From NCBI RefSeq assembly GCF_009709575.1, contig NZ_WIXO01000001.1, forward strand, positions 4,590,001 through 4,654,000: DNA of 64,000 nt, in the 5' to 3' direction. The notes under the pieces were generated by a model, which was not told where the DNA came from, ran no database searches, and was given only the letters and a program-made list of their open reading frames with translations. The position numbers and the translations under genes are program-made. Of this stretch, positions 29,759 through 38,300 are shown piece by piece; the first letter of the stretch is position 1; each line of letters begins with the position of its first letter. This stretch comes from Streptomyces taklimakanensis. Lineage in GTDB: Bacteria > Actinomycetota > Actinomycetes > Streptomycetales > Streptomycetaceae.

Positions 29759-30007
29759 TCACCTCCGGGCGTCGCCGTCCGGGCCGGGGGAGGACCGGGT
29801 CTCGACGACGTCGCCGGGGGCGGCGCGGACGATCCGGGGGGCACCGCCGTCCGCGTCGGGGGTGCCGTCCGACCTCATGGCCCTGGCCTCGCTCTTGAGG
29901 ATGCGGGCCGCCTTGCCCGCCGAGCGGGCCAGTTCGGGGAGCCTCTTGGCGCCCAGCACGACGATGACGACGACGAGGAGGACGGCGAGTTCGCTGATCC
30001 CGAGCAT
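29759..30007 (-). CDS. TatA/TatE-like twin-arginine translocase subunit
   Basis: An 82-residue protein with one N-terminal membrane helix (ISELAVLLVVVIVVLGAKRLPELARSAGKAARILKSE). This is the TatA pattern: short periplasmic start, hydrophobic helix, the hinge G-x-KRLPELARS, then an amphipathic helix and a charged tail. It would join the pore-forming pool of the Tat system at the membrane. It is not beside tatC, so it is an additional TatA-like protein. It is divergent from a blaI-type repressor gene. A TCTACA-N4-TGTAGA dyad sits 45 bp upstream of the start, which suggests control by that repressor. Confidence 0.85.
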   Translation of the reverse strand: MLGISELAVLLVVVIVVLGAKRLPELARSAGKAARILKSEARAMRSDGTPDADGGAPRIVRAAPGDVVETRSSPGPDGDARR

Positions 30008-30051
30008 CGGGCTGCTCTCTCCCGGGGACGGACGGCGGGTGGCACGGAAAA

Positions 30052-30067
30052 TCTACAGGAATGTAGA
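30052..30067. promoter_or_regulatory. Candidate BlaI-type operator in tatA-like/blaI region
   Basis: TCTACA-GGAA-TGTAGA is a perfect 6-bp dyad with a 4-base spacer. It lies between the TatA-like gene and the divergent BlaI-type repressor gene. TACA/TGTA cores are typical of BlaI/MecI operators. A stronger copy with the same spacing is found at 33005-33024. Confidence 0.65.
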
Positions 30068-30152
30068 AGGTGGGGGAAGGGGTCCCGGGGACGCCGGCTA
30101 GCATGGACCGCCCCGCGGTGGGCCGCGGGGCGGGTGGCTGGAGGGAGACGGG

Positions 30153-30539
30153 GTGAGAGGCCGGCAGGAGCGTCCTCGACGGCGCGGCCAGGGTGAGTTG
30201 GAGACACAGGTGCTGTCGGTGCTGCGCGAGGCACCGGGGCCGGTGGACACGGAGTGGGTGCGGGAGCGGCTCGGCGGCCCCCTGGCGTACACCACCGTGA
30301 TCACCGTCCTGACGCGGCTGTTGGCCAAGGGCGTGGTGACGCGGGAGAAGGAGGGGCGGTCGTTCGTGTGGACGGCGGCGGCCGACGAGGCCCGGCTGGC
30401 CGCCCTGCGGATGCGCAGGGTGCTGGACGGGGAGAGCGACCGGGAGGCGGTGCTGGCCGGCTTCGTCGCCGAGCTCTCCCCGGACGACGAACAGGTGCTG
30501 CGGGAACTCCTCCGGCAGGCGGAGGAACCGGAGGGCTGA
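30153..30539 (+). CDS. BlaI/MecI/CopY-family repressor
   Basis: A 128-residue winged-helix repressor. It reads LETQVLSVLREAPGPVDTEWV then TTVITVLTRLLAKGVVTREKEGRSFVW, the family's DNA-binding domain with its TVxTxLxRLxxKGxxxRxxxGR signature. The C-terminal helices that dimerise follow (AVLAGFVAELSPDDEQVLRELL). The GTG start follows GGAGACGGG. Its stop overlaps the start of an M56-like metalloprotease (TGATG), the usual repressor-protease pairing in which cleavage or inactivation of the repressor relieves control. Two dyads nearby are candidate operators. The inducing signal is unknown. Confidence 0.92.
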   Translation: MRGRQERPRRRGQGELETQVLSVLREAPGPVDTEWVRERLGGPLAYTTVITVLTRLLAKGVVTREKEGRSFVWTAAADEARLAALRMRRVLDGESDREAVLAGFVAELSPDDEQVLRELLRQAEEPEG

Positions 30540-31486
30540 TGTCCATGGGGGTCTTCGTCTTCCTGCCGCTCGTCCTGCCGCTGACCGCCTGGCCCATCGC
30601 GCACCTGGCCGAACGGCGCCTTCACCCGCGCGTCGCCACCCTCATGCTGGCGGCCACGGCCGGGGTGCTCGCGGTGTGCAGCTCGCTCTGCCTGGGGCTG
30701 CTGGTCGTGGTGGGCACCGCGCAACTGCCGGGCAATCCGCTGCCGGACGGCTGGTCGGATCCGGAGGTGCGCGAGGCGCTCCCCTACGACGAGGTCGCGG
30801 GGACGGCGTCCATCCCGGCCCTGGCGGCCGTGCTGGTGGCGGTCGGGAGGACCCTGTGGCGGCACCACCGGACGCGGCGCCGTGCCGGGCGGGCGCTGGA
30901 CGGGCTGTCGGGGGCCGCCTCCGTGGCGGTGCTGCCCGACCCCGCGCCCTACGCCTACGCGCTGCCCGGCCGGTGGGGGCGAGGGGGCCGCGTGGTGGTC
31001 TCCACGGCGCTGCTCTCCGGTCTCGACGGACCCGAGCGCCGCGCGCTGTTCGCCCACGAGCGGGCCCACCTGGCGGCCCGGCACCACCGGTACCTGCTGG
31101 CGGTGCACCTGGCGGCGCGGGCCAACCCGTTCCTGCGGCCGCTGCGCACGGCCGTGGTCTACACCGTGGAGCGATGGGCGGACGAGGCCGCGGCCCGTGC
31201 GGTGGGCAGCCGACGGACGGTGGCCCGCGCCATCGGCAAGGCGGCACTGGTCTCCCGTGGCGCGCCCACGTCGACACTGGCGGGGTTCGCCGAGCCGGGG
31301 CCGGTGCCGCGCCGGGTGGCGGCTCTCCTCGGGCCGGCCCCCGCCGTGCGGGCCTGGCCCCCGGTGTTCACGGCCGCCGGGCTGGCGGTGTGGACGGCCG
31401 TGGCCGGAGCCGCGGTCTCGGCGCTGTCGTCGGCGAACTCGGCGGTCACGCTGTTCTTGGTGCTGAGGGCGACCACCCCGCTGTGA
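30539..31486 (+). CDS. M56/BlaR1-like membrane zinc metalloprotease
   Basis: A 315-residue membrane protein with hydrophobic segments near residues 5-20, 30-60, 95-110 and 275-310, and a zinc-protease motif HERAH (HExxH) near 178. It is followed by the downstream acidic ligand in ERWADEAAARAVG near 215. This is the M56/M48 pattern of proteins encoded next to BlaI-type repressors. It lacks the extracellular penicillin-binding sensor of true BlaR1, so the signal is not simply beta-lactam binding. The ATG overlaps the repressor stop codon, so translation is coupled. A hairpin follows. Confidence 0.85.
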   Translation: MSMGVFVFLPLVLPLTAWPIAHLAERRLHPRVATLMLAATAGVLAVCSSLCLGLLVVVGTAQLPGNPLPDGWSDPEVREALPYDEVAGTASIPALAAVLVAVGRTLWRHHRTRRRAGRALDGLSGAASVAVLPDPAPYAYALPGRWGRGGRVVVSTALLSGLDGPERRALFAHERAHLAARHHRYLLAVHLAARANPFLRPLRTAVVYTVERWADEAAARAVGSRRTVARAIGKAALVSRGAPTSTLAGFAEPGPVPRRVAALLGPAPAVRAWPPVFTAAGLAVWTAVAGAAVSALSSANSAVTLFLVLRATTPL

Positions 31487-31491
31487 CGGGA

Positions 31492-31522
31492 ACGGGCGCG
31501 CCCGTGGCCCGGGCGCGCCCGT
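31492..31522. terminator. Hairpin between M56 protease and Spo0M genes
   Basis: Perfect 13-bp arms (ACGGGCGCGCCCG and complement) around a 5-base loop between convergent genes, likely a bidirectional terminator. Confidence 0.7.
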
Positions 31523-31571
31523 GGGAGGGGGGGGAGGAAGGGACGGGAGGAGGAGGGACGGGCCGTCCGGC

Positions 31572-32597
31572 TCAGCCCTCGTCGCCTCCGTCGTCCTCGC
31601 CCTCGAAGAAGTCGCCCACTTCGTCGACGACCTCGGCCGCGACCATGCCGCCCGCGACGCCGACCGCGAGCCCGGCCGCCCCGGCGGCGATGGCGGTGCC
31701 CATCCCGGGGCCGGAGCGGTGGCCGTCGTGGCCGTCGTGGCCGTGGTGGCCGTGGTGGCCGTGGATCCCGTCGTGCCCGTGGAGGCCGTCGTGCCCGGGG
31801 CCGTACGGAGCGCCGTGCGCGACGCGGCCCTCCACGAGCCGTCGCACCCAGTCGTCCACCTCGGCGTTCCAGTCCCGGACGTCCTGGTGGCCGACCGTGA
31901 AGCGGGTGAGGGCGTCGTGGCCGCCGGAGAAGCCGGGGAAGGAACCGCCGCGCTTGTCGGCCTCCAGCACCACCTCCACCCCGGCCGGGTTCGCCAGGAA
32001 GGTCACCTCGATCTCGTTCACCGCGTGCGCGTAGCGCGGGGAGGGGGTGAGTTCGATCTCCTGGTAGAAGGGGAGCTGCTGCCCGGTGCCGCGGATGTGG
32101 CCGTACTCCAGGTCGGCGGACTTGAACCCGAAGCCGAGCTGCCCGAACGCCTCCAGGATCGCCTCCTGCGCCGGCAGGGCGCGCACCGCCAGCGGATCCA
32201 GGTCGCCCTTGTCCTTCGCCCCGGCCACCGCCAGTTCGGTGCGCACCCCGAGGGCGACGCCCAGGGGCTGCCCGTGCAGTTCGGTGACCGGGGTCTCCCA
32301 CGGCAGTGTCACGGTGAACGGAACGTTGTGTTCCGCTCCCTCGGCCAGCCGGAAACCGCCGCCGACGGTGAAGCGGCCGAAGGCGACCGTGCCCTCGTGC
32401 TCGCCGCCGTCGGTCTCGGCCTCGACGCGGGCGACCAGTTCCAGGCCGATGTGCTCGATGTCGAAGTCGGCGCTGCCGCCCCTGAGGTGGACCCGTCCGG
32501 ACAGGGTGCCGCCGGGCAGGACGGCTCCCTCCTCCAGGACCGTGTCCACCGTGGGGCCGCCCACGCCGAGCGAGCCGAGTAGCCGTTTGAACACCAT
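31572..32597 (-). CDS. Spo0M-family sporulation-control protein with His-rich tail
   Basis: A 341-residue arrestin-like Spo0M protein. The first 250 residues carry the family pattern (VDTVLEEGAVLPGGTLSGRVHL, DIEHIGLELVARVE, then VPFTVTLPWETPVTEL). After this comes an uncommon stretch near 265-295 made of repeated His-Gly-Asp/His units, then a Gly/Ala-rich apolar segment (MGTAIAAGAAGLAVGVAGG) and an acidic end. The His-rich run could bind Zn, Ni or Cu, and the apolar segment could touch the membrane. Spo0M influences sporulation in Bacillus; the actinobacterial role is unclear. The ATG has GAGGAG upstream. It is leftward and converges with the M56 gene. Confidence 0.85.
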   Translation of the reverse strand: MVFKRLLGSLGVGGPTVDTVLEEGAVLPGGTLSGRVHLRGGSADFDIEHIGLELVARVEAETDGGEHEGTVAFGRFTVGGGFRLAEGAEHNVPFTVTLPWETPVTELHGQPLGVALGVRTELAVAGAKDKGDLDPLAVRALPAQEAILEAFGQLGFGFKSADLEYGHIRGTGQQLPFYQEIELTPSPRYAHAVNEIEVTFLANPAGVEVVLEADKRGGSFPGFSGGHDALTRFTVGHQDVRDWNAEVDDWVRRLVEGRVAHGAPYGPGHDGLHGHDGIHGHHGHHGHDGHDGHRSGPGMGTAIAAGAAGLAVGVAGGMVAAEVVDEVGDFFEGEDDGGDEG

Positions 32598-32663
32598 CGG
32601 GCGTTCACTCCTCACTGTGGTTCCGCCGCGCGCACGCGGCTGTGTACGGGGTGCCGCGCCGCG

Positions 32664-32885
32664 CTACTTCGCCGCCGGGGCCAGCGCTGCCAGGGCCTGT
32701 GCCCAGCGCACGTACTTCAGGTCGGCCAGATCGGCCACCGTCCGTACCCCGAAGGCCTCCCGCAGCAGGTCGCCGTCGCGGTCGGAGACGCCCTTCAGCG
32801 CCGACACCGGGGCTTGCAGGATCTCCGGCAGGTCCTTGTCCGCCCACGCCTTGTCCAGCACTTTCTCCAGGTCGACCGTGGCCAT
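32664..32885 (-). CDS. Small helix-hairpin-helix-like protein
   Basis: A 73-residue soluble protein with a pattern seen in many Streptomyces conserved hypotheticals: an N-terminal helix (LEKVLDKAWADKDLPEILQA), then PVSALKGVSDRDGDLLREAF, GVRTVADLADLKYVRWAQAL. The repeated G-V turns between short helices resemble helix-hairpin-helix units. No catalytic motif is present. A strong TTCTACA dyad lies 120 bp upstream of its ATG and is shared with the BlaI region, so it is a likely member of the same regulon. Its function is unknown. Confidence 0.75.
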   Translation of the reverse strand: MATVDLEKVLDKAWADKDLPEILQAPVSALKGVSDRDGDLLREAFGVRTVADLADLKYVRWAQALAALAPAAK

Positions 32886-33004
32886 GAATGTCCTTTCGGG
32901 GTCGCGGAAGCGAGGTGTGGGCCAACAGGAGACGAACGGGCCGCGCGGCGGCGCGTGCCCGGTGCACGCTGGAGCCGCGGCCGTGCCTCCGTGCCCTCTC
33001 GCAT

Positions 33005-33024
33005 CTTCTACATGCGTGTAGAAG
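33005..33024. promoter_or_regulatory. Strong BlaI-type dyad upstream of the HHH-like gene
   Basis: CTTCTACATGCGTGTAGAAG is a perfect 8-bp inverted repeat with a 4-base spacer. It has the same TCTACA/TGTAGA core and spacing as the dyad at 30052-30067. It lies 120 bp upstream of the small leftward gene and more than 300 bp from the rightward CNNM gene, so the leftward gene is the likely target. Confidence 0.7.
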
Positions 33025-33261
33025 TTTACGGGTGCCCGGCCGCGCCGCGCCGGCGCCCGGAGCCCGCGGGCCGGAGAACGTCCGAAAATCGCGCCCCGAA
33101 CGGCCCCGCCCGCTCCCGCCCGCCGGGAACCGATGCGCTCGGTTGTGGCGTTCGCCCTTCAAGAGTGTTTTGCCGCACCTTTACACTGACCTGAAATGAG
33201 CCGGTTCCCACGAGGTAGGAGATACCCGGCCGGCCCGACGAGAAGGAGCTCGGAACCCCCC

Positions 33262-33339
33262 ATGGGTGAACCTCCCAGTACCAGCCGTGCCACCCGCGGC
33301 CGCCCCGCGACGAGTTTGGGGACGGAGGTGGCACGGTGA
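33262..33339 (+). CDS. Candidate 25-codon leader peptide of the CNNM operon
   Basis: ATG GGT GAA CCT CCC opens a 25-codon frame (MGEPPSTSRATRGRP...) that ends in TGA overlapping the GTG start of the CNNM gene (GTGA). It could couple translation of the two. AAGGAG lies upstream but at wide spacing. The early Glu-Pro-Pro run resembles acidic/proline leaders that sense low Mg2+ through ribosome instability. That reading is an inference, and the frame may simply be chance. Confidence 0.4.
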   Translation: MGEPPSTSRATRGRPATSLGTEVAR

Positions 33340-34673
33340 CCGAAGTCCTGCTTCTGCTGGTGGCTCTCGCGCTGGTCCTGGGCTGCGCCGTCTTCGTCGC
33401 GGCCGAGTTCTCCCTGACCACCGTCGAGAGGGGCGAACTGGAGCGGGCGGCGCGCGAGGGAGAGCGCGGCGCGGCGAGCGCGCTGAAGGCGGTCAGACGG
33501 CTGACCTTCCAGCTCTCCGGCGCGCAGCTGGGCATCACGGTGACCTCCCTGGTCATCGGCATGCTCGCCGAACCCTCCCTGGCCGTGCTGCTGCGCGGCC
33601 CCCTCACCGCCGCGGGACTGCCCGGCGGCGCCGTTCCCACCACCGCGACCGTGCTCGGCGTCACGCTCTCCACCGTGGTGCTGATGGTGATCGGCGAACT
33701 GGTCCCCAAGAACTGGGCCATCTCCAACCCCCTGGCGGTCGCGCGCGTCGTCGCCGGCCCCCAGCGCGGCTTCACCACCGTCTTCGGCCCCCTCATCCGC
33801 CACCTCAACGACACCGCCAACCACCTGGTGCGCCGCTTCGGACTGGAGCCCGCCGAGGAACTGGAGTCCGTCCGCACCCCCGACGAACTGGCCGCCCTGG
33901 CCCGCCGCTCCGCCAAGGAGGGCGCCATCGAGGCCGACGCCGCCGAACTGTTCGTCCGCACCCTCCACCTCAGCGAGCTCAGCGCCGAGAACGTCATGAC
34001 CCCCCGGGTGGACGTCAAGGCGCTGGAGGCCCACGCCACCGCGGCCGACGCCGAGAACCTCACCCTGGCCACCGGCCTGTCGATCTTCCCCGTCTACCGC
34101 GACACCCTCGACGAGGTGATCGGCACCGTCCACATCCGTGACGTCCTCGCCCTCCCGGCCGCCCGACGCCCCGCCACCGCGGTCACCGAGCTGCTCGCCG
34201 AGCCGCTGCTGGTGCCCGAGACCCTGCCCGTCGACCGCCTCCTGGAGCAGATGCGCAGCCGGCGCACCCTCGCGGTCGTCATCGACGAGTACGGCGGCAC
34301 CGCCGGCGTCGCCACCGTCGAGGACATCGTCGAGGAGGTCGTCGGCGAGGTCCGCGACGAACACGACCCCCACGAGGAGCCCGGTCTGCGCCCCCTGGGC
34401 GCCGACGACGGCCGCGCCCGCTGGGAGGCCGACGGCGGCGCCCGCCTGGACGAGCTGGTCGCCATCGGACTGACCGCCCCCGACGGCCCCTACGAGACCC
34501 TCGCCGGGCTGCTGGCCACCCGTCTGGAGCGCATCCCCGCCCCCGGCGACACCGTCGAGGTCGACGGCTGGGAGCTGTGCGTCCTGGACGTCGACCACCA
34601 CCGCGCCGACCGGATACGGCTCACCGCCCCGGCCCCGGCCACCCGCGAGGTCCGTGAGGAGGCCCTGCGATGA
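33336..34673 (+). CDS. CNNM/CorC-type membrane protein with CBS domains
   Basis: A 445-residue membrane protein of the hemolysin/CNNM/CorC family, proposed to handle Mg2+ or Co2+ efflux. The DUF21 transmembrane domain spans about 1-180 with EFSLTTVERGELERAAREGERG, AQLGITVTSLVIGM and GELVPKNWAISNP. A CBS pair follows near 200-330 (NVMTPRVDVKAL and DEYGGTAGVATVEDIVEEVVG), and a CorC/HlyC transporter-associated domain lies at the end (DGWELCVLDVDHHRADRIRL). The GTG start has GGAGG upstream. The following gene overlaps by ATGA and encodes a second, shorter member, so they probably form a heteromeric pair. Confidence 0.92.
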   Translation: MTEVLLLLVALALVLGCAVFVAAEFSLTTVERGELERAAREGERGAASALKAVRRLTFQLSGAQLGITVTSLVIGMLAEPSLAVLLRGPLTAAGLPGGAVPTTATVLGVTLSTVVLMVIGELVPKNWAISNPLAVARVVAGPQRGFTTVFGPLIRHLNDTANHLVRRFGLEPAEELESVRTPDELAALARRSAKEGAIEADAAELFVRTLHLSELSAENVMTPRVDVKALEAHATAADAENLTLATGLSIFPVYRDTLDEVIGTVHIRDVLALPAARRPATAVTELLAEPLLVPETLPVDRLLEQMRSRRTLAVVIDEYGGTAGVATVEDIVEEVVGEVRDEHDPHEEPGLRPLGADDGRARWEADGGARLDELVAIGLTAPDGPYETLAGLLATRLERIPAPGDTVEVDGWELCVLDVDHHRADRIRLTAPAPATREVREEALR

Positions 34674-35692
34674 CCGCCCTGCAACTGGGGATCGGCCTGT
34701 TGACGCTGCTGACCAACGCCTTCTTCGTCGGTGCCGAGTTCGCGCTGATCTCGGTCCGCCGCAGCCAGGTCGAACCCCACGCCGAGAAGGGCTCCAAGCG
34801 CGCCCGCACGGTGCTGTGGGGCCTGGAGCACCTCTCGGCGATGATGGCCACCGCCCAATTGGGCATCACCGTCTCCTCCCTGGTCCTGGGAGCCGTGGCC
34901 GAGCCGGCGATCGCCCACCTGCTGGAGCCGCCCTTCGCGGCCGTCGGCGTCCCGGGAGCGCTGATCCACCCGATCGCGTTCGTCATCGCCCTGGCCCTGG
35001 CGACCTACCTCCACATGCTGGTCGGCGAGATGGTGCCCAAGAACATCGCGCTGGCCGCCCCCGTGCCCAGCGCCCTGCTGCTGGGTCCGCCGCTGGTCGC
35101 CCTCACCCGGGCCCTGCGCCCGATGGTCTTCGGCATCAACGCCTTCGCCAACGTCCTGCTGCGCCTGTTGAGGGTGGAGCCCAAGGACGAGGTCGCCTCG
35201 ATCTTCACCGACGCGGAGCTGGCCCGCATGGCGGAGGAGGCCAGCCGTGCCGGACTGATCGAGCCAGGCGGCCACCAGCGGCTGCGCGAGGCCCTGGAGC
35301 TGGGCCACCGCCCGGTGCGCGAGGTGCTGGTGCCCCTGGCCGACATGCACACCGTCGACCACACCGTCACCCCCGACGAGCTGGAGCGCACCGCCACCAC
35401 GGCCGGTTTCTCCCGCCTGCCGGTGACCGGCCCCGGCGGCACCGTGCTGGGATACCTGCACGTCAAGGACGCCATCGGTGTCCTCCACCGCGACCGGCCG
35501 TTCCCGCCCGAGGCCCTGCGCACCGTCGTCCAGATAGGGGAGGGCACCCCGCTGGACGACGTCCTGACCACCATGCGCGCCGCAGGTACCCACCTGGCCG
35601 CCGTCACCGACGGGCGGGGCACGCTGCTGGGCTTCGTCACCATGGAGGACGTCCTGGACAAACTGGTGGGTCCGACCCCGGCCGCCGCCTGA
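34670..35692 (+). CDS. Second CNNM/CBS membrane protein, lacks the CorC end domain
   Basis: A 340-residue partner of the preceding protein: a DUF21 membrane domain (AEFALISVRRSQVEPHAEKGS, AQLGITVSSLVLGAVAEP, GEMVPKNIALAAP) and a CBS pair (REVLVPLADMHTV, then RLPVTGPGG and FVTMEDVLDKLVG). It stops right after the second CBS domain, so the C-terminal transporter-associated domain seen in its neighbour is missing. This long-short pairing of CNNM proteins is common in Streptomyces. Its start overlaps the upstream stop, and two hairpins follow, so the two genes form an operon. Confidence 0.92.
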   Translation: MTALQLGIGLLTLLTNAFFVGAEFALISVRRSQVEPHAEKGSKRARTVLWGLEHLSAMMATAQLGITVSSLVLGAVAEPAIAHLLEPPFAAVGVPGALIHPIAFVIALALATYLHMLVGEMVPKNIALAAPVPSALLLGPPLVALTRALRPMVFGINAFANVLLRLLRVEPKDEVASIFTDAELARMAEEASRAGLIEPGGHQRLREALELGHRPVREVLVPLADMHTVDHTVTPDELERTATTAGFSRLPVTGPGGTVLGYLHVKDAIGVLHRDRPFPPEALRTVVQIGEGTPLDDVLTTMRAAGTHLAAVTDGRGTLLGFVTMEDVLDKLVGPTPAAA

Positions 35693-37107: not shown

Positions 37108-38139
37108 TCAGGAGGCCAGGACGGCCACAGTGCTCAGGTAGATCGTCAGCAGCAGCGCCCCGTCGAAGCCCAGTCCCAGCCAGCCGCGTCGCTGACGCAC
37201 CAGCAGCCCGCCCAGCAGCACGGTCGTCATCACCAGGGACGCGCTGGTGAGGAAGAGATGGTCGGTGTCCGCGGAGTGGTAGAGGGACCCGCCGCGGAAG
37301 GCCAGGTCGCCGACGGCCAGGTTGAGGACGTCCAGACAGTTCCCGCCGACGATCGCCGCCACCGCGAGCGTCACCGCGCCGCGCCGCACCGCCGCGACGG
37401 CCGCCACCGTCTCGGGCAGCGCGTTCACCCCGCCCATGAAGATCGCGCCCACCAGTCCCGCGCTCAGCCCGGTGGCGTCCAGGATGCCCCCGGCCGCCCG
37501 GGCGACGGCCCAACCGCCCACCACCACCAGGCCGGCGATCCCGAGGAACTCCCCCCACAACCGGACGCGTCCGTGCCGCAACGGCTCGTCGTCGGGCACG
37601 TCCGGAACCGTATCCCGGGTGCGGACCGCGCGCCACATCGGCTCGTCGTGGTCCCGGATCAACCGGATGCCACCCCAGTAGAAGGCCACCAGCGCCACCG
37701 ACGCCGGATGCACCCCCCACAGCGTCGCCTCCGGACTGAAGGACGCCAACAGCGCCACGCCCAGCAGCCCCGTCAGCAGACAGCCGAACAACAGGTTCGA
37801 CATCGACGCCGCGGCGTGCTCCAGATTGGCGCGCCGGTGGAAGGCGTCCGCGACGACCACCGCCAGGGTCTGCGCGGTGATCCCGCCCACCGCGTTGCCG
37901 TACGCCAGCCCCGGCCGGTCGGCCGCGGCGCTCACCGCCGTCATCACGATCCCCGACAGAGAGGTGATCAGACCGAAGAACACGGCGCCGAACAGCGCCT
38001 CGCCCCACCCCGTCCGGTCGGCGAGCGTGTCCCCCAGGGCGGCGAGCCGCACGCTGCACACCACCGTGAGAGCCGCGGCCAGGACGAAGATCCCGACGCT
38101 CCATCCCGGACCCCAACTCCCGGTCAGCACCGAGGACAC
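37108..38139 (-). CDS. CaCA-family cation (Ca2+/Na+) antiporter-like protein
   Basis: A 343-residue integral membrane protein with two homologous halves of about five helices each. Each half carries the alpha-repeat pattern of calcium/cation exchangers: FGAVFFGLITSLSGIVMTAVSA in the first and GAIFMGGVNALPETVAAVAAV in the second. The acidic residue expected in the alpha repeats is kept in the second half (NALPE) but in the first half the site reads TSLSG, so ion selectivity may differ from the classical family. GTG is chosen because GGGAGGG lies five bases upstream. It is monocistronic. Confidence 0.8.
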   Translation of the reverse strand: MSSVLTGSWGPGWSVGIFVLAAALTVVCSVRLAALGDTLADRTGWGEALFGAVFFGLITSLSGIVMTAVSAAADRPGLAYGNAVGGITAQTLAVVVADAFHRRANLEHAAASMSNLLFGCLLTGLLGVALLASFSPEATLWGVHPASVALVAFYWGGIRLIRDHDEPMWRAVRTRDTVPDVPDDEPLRHGRVRLWGEFLGIAGLVVVGGWAVARAAGGILDATGLSAGLVGAIFMGGVNALPETVAAVAAVRRGAVTLAVAAIVGGNCLDVLNLAVGDLAFRGGSLYHSADTDHLFLTSASLVMTTVLLGGLLVRQRRGWLGLGFDGALLLTIYLSTVAVLAS

Positions 38140-38300
38140 CGGTTCCCTCCCCCCGAACACACGCCGGGTCGTGACGGACGACTGACGCCGCCCGGTCGGC
38201 CGGGCGGCGTCACCCGCCTACCCCGCGCCCACCACGGAACACGACCGAAACGAATCGGACGACAGGGGGGAAGGGCGGGGGCGGGGACAGGGGGCGGTGG

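Follow-up and report, generated by a model that had tools for sequence, protein, structure and literature searches.

Paired TCTACA-N4-TGTAGA dyads as predicted operators of a BlaI repressor with a BlaR1-like protease partner in Streptomyces taklimakanensis

In a stretch of 64,000 nucleotides of Streptomyces taklimakanensis DNA (assembly GCF_009709575.1, contig NZ_WIXO01000001.1, positions 4,590,001 to 4,654,000, forward strand; hereafter the window, whose numbering is used unless stated otherwise), two copies of the dyad TCTACA-N4-TGTAGA lie beside genes for a BlaI/MecI-family repressor, a membrane zinc metalloprotease and several small or membrane-related proteins. These dyads are probably the operators of the repressor, BlaI (30153–30539), and the partner protease would relieve repression of a membrane-stress regulon. 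The features on which this reading is built are as follows.

29759–30007, minus strand: TatA-like small membrane protein (82 amino acids, aa), an orphan paralogue (PF02416, expected value E 1.7e-13) with the hinge LG
30052–30067, no strand: predicted BlaI-type operator TCTACA-N4-TGTAGA between the tatA-like gene and blaI, 45 bp ahead of the former and 86 bp ahead of the blaI start (30153)
30153–30539, plus strand: BlaI/MecI-family repressor, 128 aa (PF03965, E 1.3e-24)
30539–31486, plus strand: BlaR1-like membrane zinc metalloprotease, 315 aa (Pfam M48, E 9.6e-15, not M56), its start overlapping the blaI stop
31572–32597, minus strand: Spo0M (PF07070, E 1.3e-79, residues 3–217 of 341), separated by 66 bp from the HHH gene, which precedes it on the same strand
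32664–32885, minus strand: small HHH-like protein, 73 aa, without a Pfam match, the first gene after the second operator
33007–33022, no strand: predicted BlaI-type operator TCTACA-N4-TGTAGA, 122 bp upstream of the HHH gene
33336–35692, plus strand: CNNM/CorC-type membrane protein pair (33336–34673 and 34670–35692; PF01595), divergent from the second operator

Both dyads are present where a first-pass annotation of the window, made from the sequence alone, had placed them: TCTACAGGAATGTAGA at 30052–30067 and TCTACATGCGTGTAGA at 33007–33022, the latter within the extended palindrome CTTCTACATGCGTGTAGAAG (33005–33024). The two copies are 2,955 bp apart. With up to two mismatches allowed, the window holds 2 dyad matches versus 0.14 expected from dinucleotide shuffles, and 2 matches were reached in 0 of 100 shuffles. 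The genome scan suggested in that annotation (6,136,714 bases, 3 contigs) found exact copies only at these two places and no copy of the backward control. At up to two mismatches, the whole genome contains 22 dyad sites versus 27 for the backward control; the inexact sites are therefore taken as background, and the signal is confined to the two exact dyads. The only one-mismatch site elsewhere in the genome (genome position 3144669) was considered as a further operator and rejected, since it sits within long open frames.

The dyad accompanies BlaI in related genomes. In 61 Streptomyces genomes, 103 exact dyads were found versus 2 copies of the backward control. At least one exact dyad was present in 37 of the 48 genomes with a BlaI homologue (E < 1e-15) versus none of the 13 without one (Fisher p 3.8e-7), and in 32 of the 39 genomes with a close BlaI orthologue (E < 1e-35) versus 5 of the 22 without (p 7.7e-6); the table was compiled by hand from separate scans, both E cut-offs were set after it had been seen, and the p values ignore shared ancestry. 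All five dyad-containing genomes that lack a close orthologue have a more distant BlaI. A class-wide sample of 148 genomes contained an exact dyad in 17 (8 of 11 from the genus and 9 of 137 others), the nine genomes from outside the genus carrying 10 sites, 6 of them in one family, versus 3 backward-control matches. Other genera of the same order yielded 13 dyad sites in 6 of 15 genomes (control, 0). In one genome of the class from outside the order (G087), a BlaI homologue lies by the same dyad.

Genes in the retrieved loci were predicted with a purpose-made GC-frame caller, which puts the window blaI start at 30210 instead of 30153, and gene families are BLAST clusters named via Pfam on one representative each. 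The 179 loci (2.58 Mb), 47 of which were by our own count taken because of their dyads, contain 197 distinct exact dyads; a core gene lies no more than 400 bp away from 173 of these, and 2 fall inside predicted genes. For 89 alternative palindromes of identical base content, the mean is 0.011 copies in these loci, with a single occurrence in all. The spacer of four is strict, since spacers of 2, 3, 5 and 6 bases gave 0, 0, 1 and 0 copies, respectively, versus 197 with N4. A set of 80 BlaI loci was chosen by the BlaI protein alone and not by the dyad (the best 80 of 458 relatives); an exact dyad is present in 57 and a dyad with at most one mismatch in 68 of these 80, some genomes supplying two loci (such as L223/L249, L219/L253 and L246/L263) and some loci repeating genomes already sampled (such as L227 and G034). 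Duplicates were removed by flank in the 179-locus counts and in the 100-site counts given below, but were kept in the 80-locus counts. From this comparative evidence, the dyad is a conserved predicted operator tied to the BlaI family of the window.

Membership of the putative regulon was assessed in the 80 loci by scoring each gene for a dyad within 300 bp upstream, genes starting less than 300 bp from a locus end being left out. At up to one mismatch (exact copies in parentheses), a dyad was found upstream of HHH in 12/12 (12), terB in 32/36 (24), terD in 26/30 (23), LCP in 6/9 (4), spo0M in 16/27 (5), tatA-like in 14/24 (10) and CNNM in 17/46 (5) cases; all other genes gave 15/981 (12) and the protease gene 0/68. 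Some genes that lack an upstream dyad presumably stand second in an operon, namely spo0M behind HHH, tatA-like behind terD and the second CNNM gene. Among 100 distinct sites from the genus (3 of the 4 G031 sites not being among them), 91 have a core gene no further than 300 bp away, the neighbours being terD (26), blaI (24), terB (23), tatA-like (11), spo0M (10), HHH (7), CNNM (5) and LCP (4), with a site between two genes scored for both. The remaining 9 sites comprise three that face PAP2, one that faces UppP, one within a predicted gene and four that lack a named neighbour. The commonest targets in relatives, besides blaI, are terD and terB. The HHH gene has a dyad in 8 of 9 genomes with a close BlaI (7 exact) versus 0 of 8 without (3 of these 8 in the genus), and in G029 it retains the dyad though the close blaI is on another contig; a BlaI of 46% identity lies about 350 kb off on the same contig as this HHH gene. 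The first-pass annotation had proposed that the BlaI pair controls the TatA-like and HHH genes through the dyad. Comparative genomics supports this, and the proposed target list was incomplete: spo0M, terB, terD, LCP and perhaps CNNM were missing from it, the regulon predicted in relatives holding terB, terD and LCP as well and perhaps CNNM.

The positions of promoter-like hexamers relative to the dyads are consistent with repression. TANNNT is the −10 consensus of the main Streptomyces sigma factor, and one such hexamer accompanies each dyad of the window.

30050–30055, minus strand: −10-like hexamer TAGATT, overlapping the first operator and reading to the tatA-like gene (offset +12)
33023–33028, minus strand: −10-like hexamer TAAACT, abutting the second operator and reading to HHH-spo0M (offset −6)

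Among promoters with an exact dyad, the offset of TANNNT relative to the dyad differs by gene class. It is found at −6 in HHH (14/17) and spo0M (12/15), at −5 in terB (31/47), and at +12 in terD (43/50), tatA-like (16/20) and LCP (6/8) promoters, as well as at +2 in those of terD (41/50) and tatA-like (14/20); at offsets +2 and +12 the TA comes from the dyad itself and the last T alone is informative. The best dyad offset gave 10/58 in the blaI direction and 1/10 in the CNNM direction. The predicted hexamer placement thus fits repression of the tatA-like and HHH-spo0M units. The CNNM pair was rejected as a sure regulon member, there being no recurrent −10-like hexamer at the dyad on the CNNM side (no offset gives more than 1/10), and autoregulation of blaI was rejected as a certainty, TANNNT being present in at most 10/58 at any dyad offset. 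Control by BlaI of blaI itself and of the CNNM pair is therefore uncertain.

The repressor matches PF03965 (Penicillinase_R) over residues 14–122 with 87.2 bits versus a cut-off of 22.6. Its family profile matches 2g9w (E 3.2e-13), the closest solved relative, which we take to be M. tuberculosis BlaI (Rv1846c, the neighbouring BlaR-like protease presumably being Rv1845c). The profile aligns weakly with MecI (E about 0.1), F104 falling on F102 of MecI. F104 is invariant in 20 of 20 sequences, with G, S or R instead of N in front of it; cleavage of BlaI takes place at the N101–F102 bond, according to the accessible part of the source (PMC3305447). As a separate observation on this family, BlaI proteins 70–75% identical to that of the window are encoded in four loci (L091, L098, L104 and L105) that have other neighbours and no dyad at up to one mismatch.

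Two features of the protease, whose start overlaps the blaI stop, deserve attention.

30722–30790, plus strand: candidate signal-sensing loop between helices 2 and 3 (residues 62–84, QLPGNPLPDGWSDPEVREALPYD), proposed from column conservation
31055–31069, plus strand: HExxH zinc motif HERAH (residues 173–177)

The residues of the HExxH motif and the Glu downstream of it (H173, E174, H177 and E211) are the same in all 36 aligned sequences. The structural model (predicted local distance difference test, pLDDT, 83.3) shows a chain that ends at residue 315 after the last long helix. Its best structural match is S. aureus BlaR1 (8exs_A; VIA-align Z 11.0, root-mean-square deviation 4.9 over 217 residues, 8% identity, model residues 5–258), which is a middling match, as a Z below 13 can be common for helical models, the Foldseek E is 0.07 and Pfam assigns the protein to M48; the next is ZMPSTE24 (Z 9.3 over 145 residues). 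The fold evidence leans towards BlaR1, and as modelled, the protease resembles a BlaR1 without the penicillin sensor. The loop at residues 62–84 has a mean column conservation of 0.93 in 29 main-clade sequences, versus 0.79 for the protease domain, 0.80 for the whole protein and 0.92 for the first helix. Since the conservation of the loop exceeds that of the protease domain, a fixed partner or ligand is suggested at this place. BlaR1 topology places a loop of this kind on the extracytoplasmic side, and by analogy the loop of the window protease would lie there too.

These features suggest the following mechanism. A BlaI dimer on TCTACA-N4-TGTAGA would cover or abut the −10-like hexamer, and would thereby keep the tatA-like gene and the HHH-spo0M unit silent. 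With its membrane helices and the strongly conserved loop that joins helices 2 and 3, the protease may sense an envelope signal and may then cut BlaI near F104, the loss of BlaI derepressing the regulon. The most plausible role of the regulon is to respond to damage of the envelope or membrane, the inducing signal possibly being a stalled undecaprenyl-phosphate/lipid II cycle. Sister BlaIs of Streptomyces and of a sister family, 43–56% identical, lie by the same exact dyad in 13 loci, most of which were taken for their dyads; two of the 13 (L164 and L184) do not neighbour DedA (VTT), PAP2 or UppP/BacA genes, and the other 11 do (L102, L136, L172, L177, L178, L191, L192, L194, L198, L199 and L200). 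DedA, PAP2 and UppP/BacA provide undecaprenyl-phosphate recycling functions, and LCP proteins use the undecaprenyl-phosphate lipid carrier. On account of the recycling genes at the sister loci and the LCP targets, we propose a disturbed lipid carrier cycle or membrane as the signal. The sister-clade BlaIs apparently run a separate undecaprenyl-phosphate recycling regulon with the same operator. With somewhat less than even confidence, we go further and suggest an undescribed actinobacterial pathway in which a sensorless BlaR1-like protease would read a cell-wall lipid-cycle or membrane signal through the conserved loop, destroy BlaI and deploy a membrane-protection set of TerB/TerD, Spo0M, TatA-like, HHH and LCP proteins, sister pairs controlling DedA, PAP2 and UppP.

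Several observations weigh against control of this regulon by BlaI and its protease through the dyad. i) In the 80 BlaI loci, blaI itself has an upstream dyad at up to one mismatch in just 39 of 78 cases (33 exact); 12 of the 80 loci are without a dyad at up to one mismatch and 23 without an exact one. ii) An exact dyad is missing from 11 of the 48 genomes that encode a BlaI homologue, and a close BlaI is present in 7 of these 11 genomes (G004, G015, G016, G020, G033, G064 and G065). The retrieved loci of G004, G015 and G065 contain one-mismatch sites; the BlaI loci of G016, G020, G033 and G064 have none and have other neighbours. iii) The HHH gene of G005 is without a dyad. iv) The BlaR1 match of the protease is middling, as noted above, and the envelope signal is argued solely from gene content. 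v) This genome has 10 TerD and 3 TerB matches, none with an exact dyad, since both exact copies sit in the window. A relative, G067, retains dyads at HHH-spo0M, terB and blaI; for this reason, and because the ter genes here are without exact dyads, the regulon of the window is most plausibly a cut-down version of a larger Ter regulon.

The observations that half of the blaI genes lack a dyad directly upstream, and that some BlaI loci lack one altogether, would also be expected if the dyad belonged to another regulator of which BlaI is a mere neighbour. We consider this quite unlikely, because none of the 13 Streptomyces genomes without a BlaI homologue has the dyad and 37 of the 48 with one do, because sister BlaIs, like the BlaI homologue in G087, lie by the same dyad, the former with other targets, and because the TACA/TGTA half-sites match bla and cop operators as given in the accessible parts of the sources. 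Nor are the palindromes likely to act as RNA hairpins or terminators or to be a mobile repeat. In RNA, the dyad could fold into a 6-bp stem closed by a 4-base loop, but a hairpin would tolerate paired changes, whereas the 12 bases are fixed, the 89 other same-base palindromes occurring once in all; the sites precede terB starts by 24–112 bp, and only 2 of 197 fall inside predicted genes. The dyad flanks differ by gene class and do not form a shared repeat. Given the fixity of the bases and the class-specific flanks, terminators and repeats were rejected and can be regarded as extremely improbable.

The repressor family and the similar protease would also suit a classical beta-lactam-responsive BlaI/BlaR1 system, which is nevertheless very improbable here, since the protease is without a sensor domain (315 residues versus 539–556 for full BlaR1 chains) and no beta-lactamase or penicillin-binding protein family is found among the 18 Pfam-annotated regulon-locus proteins, most minor neighbours being outside that set. 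The first-pass annotation favoured protein export, the pair supplying an extra TatA subunit that links a membrane signal to Tat export. In its favour, the window protein clearly matches TatA_B_E, and the FG hinge between the membrane helix and the amphipathic helix, which is essential in E. coli TatA, is retained by some relatives; an extra, inducible TatA subunit is conceivable. However, the genome has two TatA_B_E matches, of which one lies beside the sole TatC match at 0.89 Mb and the other is the window gene, so that the only TatC has its own TatA 3.7 Mb away from the window gene, which is not near tatC. The window protein falls below the NCBIfam cut-offs (equivalog 65.6 of 72, subfamily 50.4 of 53.9) and has LG in place of FG. 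The FG hinge is present in only 7 of 46 distinct TatA-like proteins of regulon loci, a cluster that may include one or two ordinary TatAs, with the glycine kept in 23, versus 29 of 29 TatC-linked TatAs from as many genomes, which were drawn from the 30 best-scoring hits of 38 genomes, a choice that favours well-kept TatAs. The co-regulated genes are, moreover, Ter, Spo0M and LCP genes. With an orphan tatA-like gene and the FG hinge missing from most relatives, the link to export is weak; it was rejected as the principal explanation on the hinge survey, and we consider it unlikely. A role outside classical export is likelier for most members of the TatA-like family, to judge from their hinges, the window copy with LG being an in-between case.

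The genes of the window agree with their description in the first-pass annotation, except that spo0M, behind the HHH gene, had been overlooked and that the protease is M48 in Pfam, not M56. Spo0M is presumed to be encoded by the second gene of the HHH operon, and the gene order HHH-spo0M is found again in relatives. The fold model of the HHH-like protein (pLDDT 54) is too weak to confirm HHH; a Pfam search gave 0 matches and a sequence search found no solved relative. In three Streptomyces genomes without a close BlaI (L124, L125 and L126), an HHH-like gene without a dyad lies near a gene whose product, about 1,200 aa long, presumably resembles the CobN subunit of cobaltochelatase. A sodium/calcium exchanger family gene is present in the window at 37108–38160 (minus strand), and a look-alike, judged by eye, adjoins the HHH dyad in S. 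barkulensis (L225), L230 and S. verrucosisporus (L238). In L085, L100 and L137, the gene across the dyad from terB or tatA-like, in divergent orientation, encodes an acyltransferase-3 membrane protein. Between the protease gene and terB or spo0M, a small membrane protein of about 87 aa that matches no Pfam family is encoded repeatedly (L079 8483–8743, L082 10209–10472 and L089 3944–4207, in locus coordinates).

Spo0M is a widespread arrestin-like protein. TerB and TerD proteins and orphan TatA-like proteins are likewise widespread, and to our knowledge have no settled function. For Spo0M, too, the accessible part of one paper describes the function as not settled (PMC5325327). That one operator and one repressor–protease pair stand over these genes suggests that their products may act together in an envelope response, and a single promoter reporter could serve to screen for the inducing signal. 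If so, BlaI/M56-type systems in Streptomyces would extend from beta-lactam resistance to general envelope homeostasis. In the open-access literature we found no tie between Ter genes and BlaI, nor the combination of an N4 operator, a sensorless BlaR1-like protease and Ter/Spo0M/TatA-like/LCP targets, subscription journals being mostly outside the search. The families of the parts are known; their combination is new as far as the open-access literature shows, which is no proof of absence. The main text of a paper on envelope antibiotics in S. coelicolor (PMC3123327) contains none of the terms tellur-, BlaI, penicillinase, Spo0M, TatA and SCO3767. In S. albulus, RNA-seq under acid stress lists TerD, TerZ, HtpX and a cell envelope-related attenuator among changed genes in the accessible part of the paper, from which no link to the present loci can be drawn (PMC7317143).

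The predicted system can be compared with several known ones. M. tuberculosis BlaI, the closest solved relative of the repressor (2g9w), is likewise an actinobacterial BlaI with a regulon beyond beta-lactamase; in the accessible part of the source its targets include atpH and sigC (PMC8265638), together with blaC, Rv1303 and Rv2151c, and not Ter, Spo0M, TatA-like or LCP genes. The regulon also shares terD and terB, among its targets in relatives, with the Ter systems, but in this genome ter genes are outside the reduced regulon. With the BlaI/BlaR1 and MecI/MecR1 systems of staphylococci and Bacillus it has in common a repressor with a membrane zinc protease, a TACA/TGTA dyad and F104, corresponding to F102 of the cleavage bond, whereas the window protease is without the penicillin-binding sensor and the targets seen in the window regulon are not beta-lactam resistance genes. 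The spacer is 4 bases in the window operator versus 2 in OP1 of B. licheniformis (TTACA-TA-TGTAA, as given in the accessible part of the source). CopY/CopR share the ACA/TGT core of the dyad and a distant repressor similarity, but their operator, RNYKACANNTGTMRNY, has a 2-base spacer in the portion of the source available (PMC7253601), and the window BlaI scores 29.9 bits versus a CopY cut-off of 121.95. BlaI_0696 and BlaI_1845 of C. thermocellum resemble the present case in having small, tightly defined, self-regulating regulons and BlaR1-type partners, whereas the BlaI_0696 motif is a GTCTAT inverted repeat five bases apart and the targets are mostly their own operons, according to the part of that study that is accessible (PMC8457756). 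Since BlaI operators vary in this way within the family, the non-classical N4 spacer does not exclude the window operator from it.

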